Positions 12,071-54,513 of a DNA stretch of 64,000 nt are shown in pieces. The translations under genes were made by a program, and so were the position numbers. This DNA comes from Cupriavidus agavae. GTDB lineage: Bacteria; Pseudomonadota; Gammaproteobacteria; Burkholderiales; Burkholderiaceae. Each line of letters begins with the position of its first letter. The first letter of the stretch is position 1. A model generated the notes under the pieces. The model saw only the letters and a list, made by a program, of their open reading frames with translations. It had not been told where the DNA came from and did no database searches. The stretch covers positions 186,001 through 250,000 of the forward strand of contig NZ_SGXM01000001.1 in the NCBI RefSeq assembly GCF_004217045.1, in the 5' to 3' direction.

Positions 12071-12151
12071 ATGATCATTGCCACTACATTGCGCAAGCGA
12101 CGCGAAAGGCGGCTCCGCGACACGAAGCGAGCCGCCTTCTTTGTTTTATGA
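12071..12151 (+). CDS. Putative arginine-rich leader peptide of argF (26 aa)
   Basis: Short ORF ATG..TGA encoding a peptide with 7 Arg and 2 Lys, six of the Arg within codons 8-16 (LRKRRERRLR). It reads straight through the terminator hairpin at 12106-12138, and its TGA overlaps the argF ATG (ATGA, 12148-12151). argF itself has no Shine-Dalgarno sequence (the bases ahead are T-rich), so it probably depends on re-initiation after this ORF. An AATAAT -10-like hexamer lies 5 nt before the ATG, making a leaderless start possible; GGA at 12058-12060 could instead be a weak ribosome site. Role in arginine-responsive attenuation is inference. Confidence 0.68.
   Translation: MIIATTLRKRRERRLRDTKRAAFFVL
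12106..12147 (+). terminator. Intrinsic terminator/attenuator immediately upstream of argF
   Basis: Perfect 10-bp stem AAGGCGGCTC (12106-12115) / GAGCCGCCTT (12129-12138), 13-nt loop, then TTCTTTGTTTT. It ends at the argF ATG. The nearest upstream gene points the other way, so no known upstream transcript needs ending here; it must act on argF's own transcript. Confidence 0.8.
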
Positions 12152-51995: not shown

Positions 51996-53183
51996 TTACC
52001 CCAGCTTCTTCAGCAGCTCGCGCAGCATCCCGATCATCTGGTCGATCTCCTCGCGCGTGACGTTCAGGGCCGGCATGAAGCGCAGCAGGTTGGGGCGCGG
52101 GGCGTTCAGCAGCAGGCCGGTGGGGTTCATCTCGCGGGCTTCTTCCACGATCTGCGGGCCGATGTCCTTGCCCAGCACCAGCGCGCGCAGCAGCCCTTCG
52201 CCACGCTCGCCGCCCAGGCCGAATTCCTCCGACAGTTTCAGCAGTTGCTCGCGCAGGTACTGGCCCTTGGCCTTGACGTCGTCCAGGAAGCCCGGTGCCG
52301 TGAGCTGCGCGATCACCGAGCTGCCCACGGCGGTCATCAGCGGGTTGCCGTTGTAGGTGCCGCCCTGGTCGCCGGCCTCGAAGCTGGCCACGTCGGCCTT
52401 GCACAGCAGCGCGGAGAGCGGCACACCGCCGCCGATGCCCTTGCCCAGCGTCATGATGTCCGGCTCCACGCCCGACAGCTCGTAGGCGAACAGCGTGCCG
52501 CAGCGGCCGCAGCCGGTCTGCACCTCGTCCACGATGAACAGCAGCTTGTGCTTGTCGGCCAGCGCACGCAGGCCCTGCATGAACTCGCGCGTGGCGGGAA
52601 TCACGCCGCCTTCACCCTGCACCGGCTCCAGCATGATGCCCACGGTCTTGTCCGTGATCAACTTCTCGACCGAAGCCAGGTTGTTCAGCTCGGCCTTCGG
52701 GAAGCCCGGCACCTGCGGCGCGAAAATCGTGTCCCAGCCGGCCTTGCCCGACGCGCTCATGGTCGCCAGCGTGCGGCCGTGGAAGCTGTGGTCCATCGTG
52801 ATGATCTCGAACGCGCCGTTCTTGTGCTTGCGGCCCCACTTGCGCGCCAGCTTGATGGCGCCTTCGTTGGCCTCGGCGCCGCTGTTGGCGAAGAAGACCT
52901 TGTCGAAGCAGCTGTTGTCGGTCAGTTGCCGGGCCAGCTTCAGCATCGGCTCGTTGTAGAACGCCGGGCTCGGGTTCAGCAGCTTGCGCGCCTGCTTCTC
53001 CAGCGCCTCGATCATGCCCTCGTTCGAGTGGCCCAGCGAATTGACCGCCCAGCCCTGGACGAAGTCCAGGTAGCGCTTGCCGTTATGGTCCGTCAGCCAC
53101 GAGCCCCTGCCTTCGGTGAAGACCAGCTCGGGACGGTTGGTGATGTACATCAGGGACTGGACGGGAAACTCAGCAAATGCCAT
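51996..53183 (-). CDS. argD: Acetylornithine aminotransferase (395 aa)
   Basis: PLP enzyme of arginine synthesis (class III aminotransferase). [22 protein letters not shown], the HSFHGRT motif, [21 protein letters not shown] and the PLP-Lys in [13 protein letters not shown] are present. Family members can also take N-succinyl-diaminopimelate or succinylornithine; the arginine-linked leader supports the ArgD role. Start [12 protein letters not shown] at 53183, with CAGGAG upstream. It lies 50 nt downstream of a terminator that follows an arginine-rich leader ORF. Confidence 0.93.
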
Positions 53184-53232
53184 GGCGGACTCCTGGGATC
53201 GGCATGAAACGATGGACGGAAAAACTGGCTGG

Positions 53233-53267
53233 AAAAAGCAAAAAGCCACGGGGGTTGCCCGTGGCTT
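53233..53267 (-). terminator. Intrinsic terminator/attenuator between leader and argD
   Basis: Minus strand: perfect 10-bp stem AAGCCACGGG (53267-53258) / CCCGTGGCTT (53252-53243), loop CAACC, followed by TTTGCTTTTT. It lies 50 nt upstream of the argD ATG and 27 nt past the leader stop. Confidence 0.85.
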
Positions 53268-53300
53268 GTCGACCTGAACAGACGCAATCTGCGGTCAGCC
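53263..53300 (-). promoter_or_regulatory. Possible antiterminator competing with the argD terminator
   Basis: GGCUGACC (53300-53293, the last leader codon plus stop) can pair with GGUC (53274-53271) and AGCC (53266-53263), with CAGA/UCUG inside. AGCC is part of the terminator 5' arm, so the two structures exclude each other. About 12 bp in total by hand; no energy calculation was made. Confidence 0.45.
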
Positions 53301-53360
53301 GCGCGGCACCCCGGAAGGGAGCAACGTACGTGCGCGGCGTCGGATGATGGCGGTGTTCAT
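53295..53360 (-). CDS. Putative arginine-rich leader peptide of argD (21 aa)
   Basis: ORF ATG..TGA encoding a peptide with the run IIRRRARTLL: four Arg in codons 7-11 and a fifth at codon 20. It is followed by the terminator at 53267-53233 and then argD. The promoter at 53396-53368 places the transcription start on or next to the A of this ATG, and there is no Shine-Dalgarno, so translation from a leaderless mRNA is predicted. It resembles classical amino-acid-operon leader peptides in layout; arginine response is inferred from codon content. Confidence 0.72.
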   Translation of the reverse strand: MNTAIIRRRARTLLPSGVPRG

Positions 53361-53367
53361 GGGGGCC

Positions 53368-53396
53368 AATATAAGGCGCATGCGCCGGGCTGTCAA
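53368..53396 (-). promoter_or_regulatory. Near-consensus sigma-70 promoter of the argD leader
   Basis: Minus strand TTGACA (53396-53391), 17-nt spacer, TATATT (53373-53368). The spacer contains the perfect palindrome GGCGCATGCGCC. Predicted +1 at 53361 or 53360, the latter being the A of the leader ATG. Confidence 0.82.
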
Positions 53397-53457
53397 AGCG
53401 AAATATGGCAGGCCCGGGTGGCATTGTTGTGTCGGCGGAACGCGCAGCGGGCCTGGA

Positions 53458-54513
53458 TCAGGCCGCGCCGGCCGGGTGCAGGTCGGCCTCTGATGTGAAC
53501 GAATCGGCGAAGAAGGCGTCCTCGTGGAGCCGGCACTGCGCCGTGAAATCGGTGCGGGCCGCGTTGACCATGACCGGCGCGCCGCAGGCGTAGACCTCGT
53601 GGTTCGACAGGTCGGGGTGGTCGGCCATCACGGCCTGGTGCACGAAGCCGGTACGGCCGGCCCAGTTGTCAGCGTCCTGCGCGTTGGAGACCACGGGCAC
53701 GTACTTGAAGTTAGGCAGCTCGCGCGCCCACTGCTCGCACAGCGCGTGCATGTAGAGGTCCTGCGGGCGGCGGCCGCCCCAGTACAGCGTCATCGGGCGC
53801 GTGATGCCGGTGTAGGCCGCGTGCTCGACGATGGCCTTGATCGGCGCGAAGCCGGTGCCCGACGCCAGCAGCACGATTGGCTTGTCCGAATCCTCGCGCA
53901 GGAAGAAGCTGCCCAGCGGGCCCTCGAAACGCAGGATGTCGCGCTCCTTCATGGCCGGCATGCCTTCCCGGGCGCCGAACACGTAGTCCGTGAACGCGCC
54001 GCCGGGCATGTGGCGGATGTGCAGTTCGATCGGGCCTTCCTCGTGCGGCGGCGTGGCGATCGAGTAGCTGCGGCGCTTGCCGTCGCGCAGCAGGAATTCC
54101 ACGTACTGGCCGGCCAGGAACTGCATGCGCTCGGTGGCGGGCAACTGCAGCTTGATGGCGATGACGTCGTCCGCCAGGCGTTCCATGGTGCTCACGCGGC
54201 AGGGCACCTTCTTGATGGGGATGTCGCCGGCGCCGTGCACTTCGCGGCACTCGATGGTGATGTCCGAGGTGGCGTTGGCGCAGCAGAACAGTGCGCGGCC
54301 TTCGGTCTTTTCCTGCGCCGTCAGCGCCGAGGCGGCATGGTCGCCCTGTTGGATCGTGCCCTCGGTGACGCGGCCCTTGCAGGAGCCGCAGGCGCCGTTC
54401 TTGCAGCCATAGGGCAGGCCGATGCTATGGCGCAGCGCGGCGCCAAGGATGGTTTCGTCCGCGGCCACTTCGAACTTGTGGCCACTCGGCATGACGGTAA
54501 CTTGATAAGCCAT
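53458..54513 (-). CDS. Ferredoxin-FAD-NAD(P)H reductase, CDP-6-deoxyglucoseen reductase-like (351 aa)
   Basis: N-terminal plant-type [2Fe-2S] domain with CKNGACGSCKGRV and the fourth Cys in ALFCCA (residues about 37-75). Next comes an FAD domain with RSYSIATPP and a NAD(P) domain with VLLASGTGFAPIKAIVEH and the closing EVYACGAPVMV. It is annotated in many Burkholderiales as AscD/RfbI-like, but no deoxysugar genes are nearby. It is more likely an electron-transfer reductase for an unidentified oxygenase or other partner. Start MAYQVTVMPSGH at 54513, only 10 bp from the divergent gene's ATG. Confidence 0.88.
   Translation of the reverse strand: MAYQVTVMPSGHKFEVAADETILGAALRHSIGLPYGCKNGACGSCKGRVTEGTIQQGDHAASALTAQEKTEGRALFCCANATSDITIECREVHGAGDIPIKKVPCRVSTMERLADDVIAIKLQLPATERMQFLAGQYVEFLLRDGKRRSYSIATPPHEEGPIELHIRHMPGGAFTDYVFGAREGMPAMKERDILRFEGPLGSFFLREDSDKPIVLLASGTGFAPIKAIVEHAAYTGITRPMTLYWGGRRPQDLYMHALCEQWARELPNFKYVPVVSNAQDADNWAGRTGFVHQAVMADHPDLSNHEVYACGAPVMVNAARTDFTAQCRLHEDAFFADSFTSEADLHPAGAA

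Follow-up and report, generated by a model that had tools for sequence, protein, structure and literature searches.

A probable arginine-codon attenuator before argD in Cupriavidus agavae and its relatives

Described attenuators and the locus before argD

The classical leader-peptide attenuators are those of the trp, his, leu, thr, ilv and phe operons, and to our knowledge arginine is absent from the amino acids these operons serve. In eukaryotes, the fungal arginine attenuator peptide senses free arginine through its nascent chain and acts on translation; like the locus described here, it is an arginine-linked upstream ORF before an arginine gene. The Rfam entry BcKCsr7 (RF02884, Burkholderia sRNA 7), which was reportedly first found as a transcript in work on B. 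cenocepacia KC-01, is filed as 'Gene; sRNA', with no function in the entry data examined. In Staphylococcus aureus, the leader peptide rbfL senses arginine shortage via rare Arg codons; as far as its parts are described in the sections of that source used here, it acts on translation initiation of a biofilm regulator, represses on stalling and, unlike the argD leader, has no terminator switch (PMC13009471). Control by ArgR is likewise an arginine feedback on arginine genes, exerted by a protein repressor, whereas the argD leader is an RNA in genomes without an ArgR match. In the sections used here of a comparative study, ArgR is conserved in gammaproteobacteria and absent from the other classes compared, and argD is a taxon-specific ArgR target (PMC5343134). 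Among the literature matches listed, no title or abstract opening describes an arginine attenuator of argD.

We examined the DNA before argD of Cupriavidus agavae within a stretch of 64,000 nucleotides, referred to here as the window, and consider it highly likely that this DNA encodes a conserved ribosome-mediated transcription attenuator of argD that senses charged arginyl-tRNA. Judged from its sequence, the locus is predicted to work like the classical attenuators and has most of their structural features: a short ORF with codons for the end product, proposed alternative 1:2, 2:3 and 3:4 pairings, a terminator and a biosynthetic gene. Its differences from them are a probably leaderless start, a rare CGA as the first codon of the run, and short-leader variants that stop before region 2.

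All parts lie on the minus strand. The promoter consists of a -35 box TTGACA (53391..53396) and a -10 box TATATT (53368..53373) with a 17-nt spacer; it matches the consensus at 11 of 12 positions, and no second sigma-70-like site was found in the 601 bases scanned, where shuffles give an expectation of 0.1. The leader ATG (53360) starts 7 nt past the -10 box and opens an ORF of 21 codons (53295..53360), MNTAIIRRRARTLLPSGVPRG and stop, which has counterparts in relatives. It is a short ORF with a run of end-product codons, RRRAR at codons 7-11 (53328..53342; CGA CGC CGC GCA CGT), so that Arg stands at codons 7, 8, 9 and 11, and also at codon 20; the run is the proposed stall site and region 1. 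Between the leader ORF and the structural gene lies an intrinsic terminator (3:4; 53233..53267), with a 10-bp stem (53267-53243) and a U-rich tract, the sequence 3' of the stem being TTTGCTTTTT. A Shine-Dalgarno-like AGGAG (53190..53194) precedes argD (51996..53183, ATG at 53183), whose product scores 785 bits against the NCBIfam equivalog NF002985 (cut-off 568), acetylornithine transaminase, which places the gene within the pathway of arginine itself. The earlier note, made from the letters of this DNA, had described the same order of promoter, 21-codon RRRAR ORF, 10-bp terminator and argD, and every part is present at the coordinates given above.

That note had further claimed that the end of the ORF can pair with GGUC and AGCC, and this is indeed seen: GGCUGACC (53300-53293) is able to pair with GGUC at 53274-53271 and with AGCC at 53266-53263, the latter inside the 5' arm of the terminator and thus part of the 3:4 stem. 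The proposed 2:3 antiterminator (53263..53300) would accordingly join GGCU (53300-53297) to AGCC (53266-53263) and GACC (53296-53293) to GGUC (53274-53271), with a CAGA/UCUG hairpin inside; it is suggested by the fold of the stalled state and by the clade-swap test given below. The note had also proposed folding the RNA. The 138-nt leader folds better than all 200 of 200 shuffles (z -2.5), and its minimum-energy fold contains a 1:2 hairpin (53298..53338) in which GCCGCGC (53338-53332) pairs with GCGCGGC (53304-53298), our proposed anti-antiterminator.

Recurrence of the leader and its Rfam counterpart

A terminator by itself is unremarkable here, since a terminator scan found one against 0.5 expected. 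We used a strict layout scan, which asks for a -10-like hexamer before an ATG, an ORF of 12-40 codons with at least three Arg in four codons, and a terminator within reach. Over both strands of the window it returns one site, the argD leader. Over the 80 loci listed from named relatives (658,570 strand-bases) it returns 68 matches, of which a single one does not precede argD, and 66 of the 80 argD upstream regions are recovered. By DNA similarity the leader occurs once in its own genome, with no further copy found. A model of the argD leader has three matches in that genome: the argD leader, a terminator without leader (39.5 bits, L174) and a third match of 27.1 bits; within the window the next best match reaches 18 bits.

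Within the genus, 60 genomes were searched and 59 have a close argD, the other (G011, 54% complete) giving a distant match only. Leader and terminator precede argD in 59 of 59 genomes by an automatic criterion, and we read the upstream regions of all 59, that is 60 loci, one genome being represented twice. All 60 loci have a leader ORF ending in VPRG or VPRR before the stop, and in all 60 the 5' arm of the terminator starts 27 nt past that stop. The 49 distinct leader-to-terminator sequences vary in length by whole codons within the ORF (66, 69 or 75 nt). The leader is variable at residues 2-6 and constant at the two Arg codons that open the run, with variants of the run such as RRRAR, RRRSFR, RRSFR, RRSYR, RRQSR and similar; in many members the run has just three Arg codons, a pair and a third a little further on. 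In two loci (L016 and L018) the last codon has changed from GGC to CGC, giving VPRR, and CGCU replaces GGCU, so that the pairing proposed for GGCU with AGCC is broken; the attenuator of these two may be working differently or decaying.

The hairpin could also be read as a mere terminator of the upstream reductase gene, with the ORF a chance frame, for that gene ends at 53458 and the interval 53100-53700 holds no second terminator-like site that we could find. We reject this as extremely improbable: the stretch from the reductase gene to the hairpin contains a promoter and a probably leaderless ORF, which recur together with the hairpin, all 60 genus loci retain the ORF, its stop and the 27-nt spacing, and the layout is found once in the window.

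In the family sample, a close argD was found in 98 of the 120 genomes searched; 88 of the 98 belong to other genera, and 80 of these 88 loci were read (all but three of g12 and five of g10). Leader and terminator stand before argD in 59 of the 80, covering 11 of 18 genera. Another locus (L121) has the terminator, and its start codon falls in masked bases. In the remaining 20 of 80 the criterion used finds no leader and no terminator; these comprise all those read of g2, g12, g15, g16, g18, g19 and g23 and one of g20, and in the three g16 loci argD lies only a few bases after the upstream reductase gene. A named set of at least 80 loci from Cupriavidus, Ralstonia, Paraburkholderia, Caballeronia, Burkholderia and Trinickia, which overlaps partly with the genus and family genomes, has leader and terminator in 79 of 80 genomes among the matches listed. 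The exception is Candidatus Burkholderia pumila (L266), which keeps argD and has no leader or terminator that we could find before it. The comparison of argD upstream regions among relatives had been put forward in the earlier note, along with the outcome that would speak against an attenuator, a terminator conserved without the leader ORF or its Arg codons; in the relatives that outcome did not occur, and leader, Arg codons and terminator occur together.

Beyond the family, 19 of the genomes searched in other families of the order have a close argD. Three loci (L156, L178 and L154) pass the strict layout scan. Three more (L149, L150 and L151) have full-length matches to the leader model before argD (E 4e-12 to 1.5e-7) and fail the strict scan, and in seven (L181, L186, L188 and L191-L194) a leader is discerned by eye alone, most weakly in L193 and L194. 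No convincing leader was seen by eye in 9 of the 17 order loci fetched. An order-wide tally of model matches (97 of 300 genomes) was set aside, since the matches read were mostly plain terminators; among the model matches listed, 28 were read, and five of these lie before argD with an Arg run (L149, L150, L151, L154 and L156). In one family of the order, the match of the model in L163 and L164 is, by eye, a small ORF and terminator before a gene for an EamA-like transporter, the small ORF of L164 reading MNSQSLTLVRVRPVARLHKACRSSFRGRESQR and stop.

The position of the start codon is itself conserved. Across 81 distinct upstream stretches the gap between -10 box and leader ATG is 6-7 nt in 78; in 42 the best -35 candidate is a perfect match over its 6 bases, and in 29 it agrees at 5 of 6. 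Transcription probably starts at or beside the leader ATG, and the leader is thus probably leaderless, because the ATG follows the -10 box by 7 nt. With a start at the ATG no Shine-Dalgarno sequence could precede it, and the leader would therefore be translated as a leaderless mRNA.

The argD leader RNA of Burkholderia and relatives is already catalogued as the Rfam sRNA RF02884, the same RNA in the same place before argD. Nothing in the window matches Rfam at the gathering score. At a relaxed threshold the window leader matches RF02884 over its full length (1-157) with 22 bits (E 0.016), below the gathering score of 59 bits. Genomic position and architecture agree nonetheless: the match in the window (53239-53374) spans -10 box to terminator before argD, as does the match in another locus (L078, 2721-2887). 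Over the argD leaders, scores are 164.7-167.6 bits in Burkholderia, 139 in Paraburkholderia and 59.9-103.8 in L091, L077, L074 and L108, and a Ralstonia leader scores 31, below the cut-off of 59. Eight of 14 sources pass (L274, L078, L244, L073, L091, L077, L074 and L108, with L078 and L244 from the same genome), and L106 and L118 also reach the gathering score; the six that fail (L064, L122, L150, L156, L149 and L147) include leaders from Ralstonia, Cupriavidus and other families. Downstream of the 3' end of argD in L074 (282-406, minus strand) there is a match to another Rfam Burkholderia sRNA, RF02421 Bp1_684 (45.7 bits, cut-off 44).

It might be asked whether BcKCsr7 is mainly a trans-acting small RNA, with its ORF and its position before argD incidental or secondary. 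Its Rfam class, 'Gene; sRNA', fits that reading, and terminated attenuator leaders can work in trans, as is reported for rnTrpL of Sinorhizobium. We think it quite improbable: in 79 of 80 named genomes the RNA carries an Arg-run ORF and stands upstream of argD (among the matches listed, at loci fetched through argD), the leaders diverge save around the Arg codons, and an in-frame CGA-CGY behind an AUG beside a -10 box is needless for a trans-acting RNA. An attenuator also accounts for a small transcript, since premature termination predicts a short RNA. In the sections used here of a study of B. cenocepacia, 82 short 5'UTRs arise from processing or attenuation, and argD may be among them (PMC5688073).

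The arginine codons and the proposed switch

What is kept in the leaders is the arginine codons. The leaders of Ralstonia (MNQALHLRRRRTLLPPGSRAAVC), Paraburkholderia (MNRIQSELRRRRSPLP), Burkholderia (MNRFLSALRRRRSPLRPDAAGSSRTRA) and a further relative (MNTLTIRRRRSTLPFRAPRG) share recurring Arg codons, and the N-terminus, the C-terminus and the position of the stop change; codon sensing is therefore favoured. All of the 89 distinct leaders open the run with CGA. By the usage of this window alone, CGA accounts for 3.2% of the Arg codons (1337 codons, from 47 long ORFs taken as genes). An invariant CGA at the start of the run fits a stall site, because this codon is poorly read by inosine tRNA; part of the invariance could be due to pairing.

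Alternatively, the leader peptide itself might capture free arginine, or ornithine, inside the exit tunnel and arrest the ribosome near the stop, in the manner of TnaC or the fungal arginine attenuator peptide; all 60 genus loci do share one ending, VPRG, with VPRR in its place in L016 and L018. This ending is confined to the genus: VPRG is found in none of 59 leaders of other genera, and outside the codon run no C-terminal or tunnel residues proved to be conserved, C-termini and lengths differing among genera. Moreover, in Burkholderia the stretch GCCGCCGGCUCGUC lies in the translated leader, and in Paraburkholderia the near-identical GCCGCUGGCUCGUC lies past the stop codon, as L078 and L073 show; translated in one and untranslated in the other, the stretch is therefore conserved as RNA, and in L073 this speaks against nascent-peptide arrest. 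Sensing through VPRG was rejected, and nascent-peptide arrest as a whole is very improbable.

For codon sensing we infer the following start site, leader translation, stall, switch and arginine response. RNA polymerase would begin on the leader AUG or right beside it, and the leaderless end would take up a ribosome. When Arg-tRNA is scarce, the ribosome would stall on the run starting CGA-CGY and cover region 1, leaving region 2 (GGCU onward) free to capture the 5' arm of the terminator (AGCC), and polymerase would enter argD. When Arg-tRNA is ample, the ribosome would pass the Arg run. In long leaders, of the type in the window, it would then sit on region 2 at the stop and the terminator would form; in short leaders it would be released, regions 1 and 2 would pair, and again the terminator would form. 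Termination would leave a short RNA of about 125-130 nt. The two leader types bear on a claim of the earlier note, that a ribosome at the stop masks GGCUGA. In non-genus leaders (n=59) the ORF ends 2 to 20 codons past the Arg run, and most of the leaders read from Paraburkholderia and Caballeronia have their stop 4 codons past the run, upstream of region 2. As a general rule the claim therefore fails, and for long leaders such masking may hold; in the short leaders, with their stop 4 codons past the run, the 1:2 hairpin formed after ribosome release would do the masking.

For 103 distinct sequences (47 from the genus, 56 from the family) we calculated how probable it is that the terminator's 5' arm is paired upstream while its 3' arm is still to be transcribed. 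A ribosome placed on the Arg run gives 0.87 in the genus and 0.93 in the family; the values are 0.36 and 0.34 when no ribosome is present, and 0.69 and 0.55 when one sits at the stop. Because the control with shuffled spacers is high (0.51 in the genus, 0.58 in the family), the contrast is moderate. In L016 and L018, with CGCU for GGCU, upstream pairing falls to 0.14. With these two as exceptions, an antiterminator exclusive with the terminator and freed by a stall on the run is found in silico.

Mutual information over 83 unique pairs of region 2 and region 3 was swamped by phylogeny and was replaced by a clade-swap test on 90 unique region-2/region-3 pairs in 15 clusters; the same 4 of 141 sequences, which lack GGCT, were dropped from both. 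Native 2:3 duplexes have -9.23 kcal/mol against -7.38 when swapped, and in 14 of 15 clusters the native pairing is the stronger (Wilcoxon p 0.0006). The same swap applied to the 1:2 helix, whose native duplex averages -19.0 kcal/mol, gave no signal of co-evolution (p 0.65, 11 clusters, sequences without GGCT left out), and an RNAalifold consensus recovered just the terminator, with two-sided change in one of eight pairs.

Once the whole terminator is made, with region 1 covered, it is still the minimum-energy fold in 83 of 103 sequences. The terminator being thus favoured at equilibrium, antitermination would have to be kinetic, the antiterminator forming first, and in known attenuators too antitermination depends on the antiterminator forming first. 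The 2:3 pairing exists whatever frees region 2, so Rho or a protein such as an RNA-binding regulator could in principle control the leader with no stalling of ribosomes. Such control leaves both the in-frame, CGA-first Arg codons and the leaderless start unexplained, and we give it hardly any likelihood.

Arginine genes in genomes without an ArgR match

The earlier note had set the locus against the ArgR-type control of enterics, and the contrast is borne out by the family genomes: the ArgR model PF01316 has no match in any of 21 genus or 120 family genomes. Among 160 genomes of the order none exceeds the cut-off and two have weak matches below it; in the controls, 9 of 14 genomes match, E. 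coli among them.

Other arginine genes were inspected in the same genome. No comparable leader was found at argG or argC. Before argF (12148) there is a possible second arginine leader, at 12071-12151 of the window on the plus strand, with its stop overlapping the ATG of argF. A terminator-like hairpin (AAGGCGGCTC..GAGCCGCCTT, CTTTGTTTT) has a 5' arm that overlaps with the Arg codons of this leader, and all 7 of the same-genus loci read retain the motif LR(K/M)RRERR; upstream of argF in six Ralstonia-like and several Burkholderia-like loci the hairpin, by eye, is kept and the Arg run is not. The argF gene may thus have a leader of different build. A broader proposal would be that in the ArgR-less Burkholderiales arginyl-tRNA attenuation replaces ArgR at argD, through BcKCsr7, and probably at Cupriavidus argF, with the terminated argD leader perhaps serving as a trans-acting sRNA of arginine status; taken as a whole we regard this as speculative and rather unlikely.

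If the attenuator acts at argD as we propose, it would provide a function for an Rfam sRNA (RF02884), and arginine would join the amino acids for which a conserved transcription attenuator exists, in this case one whose leader ORF is leaderless. It would also explain how arginine synthesis is adjusted in a large group of bacteria without an ArgR match.
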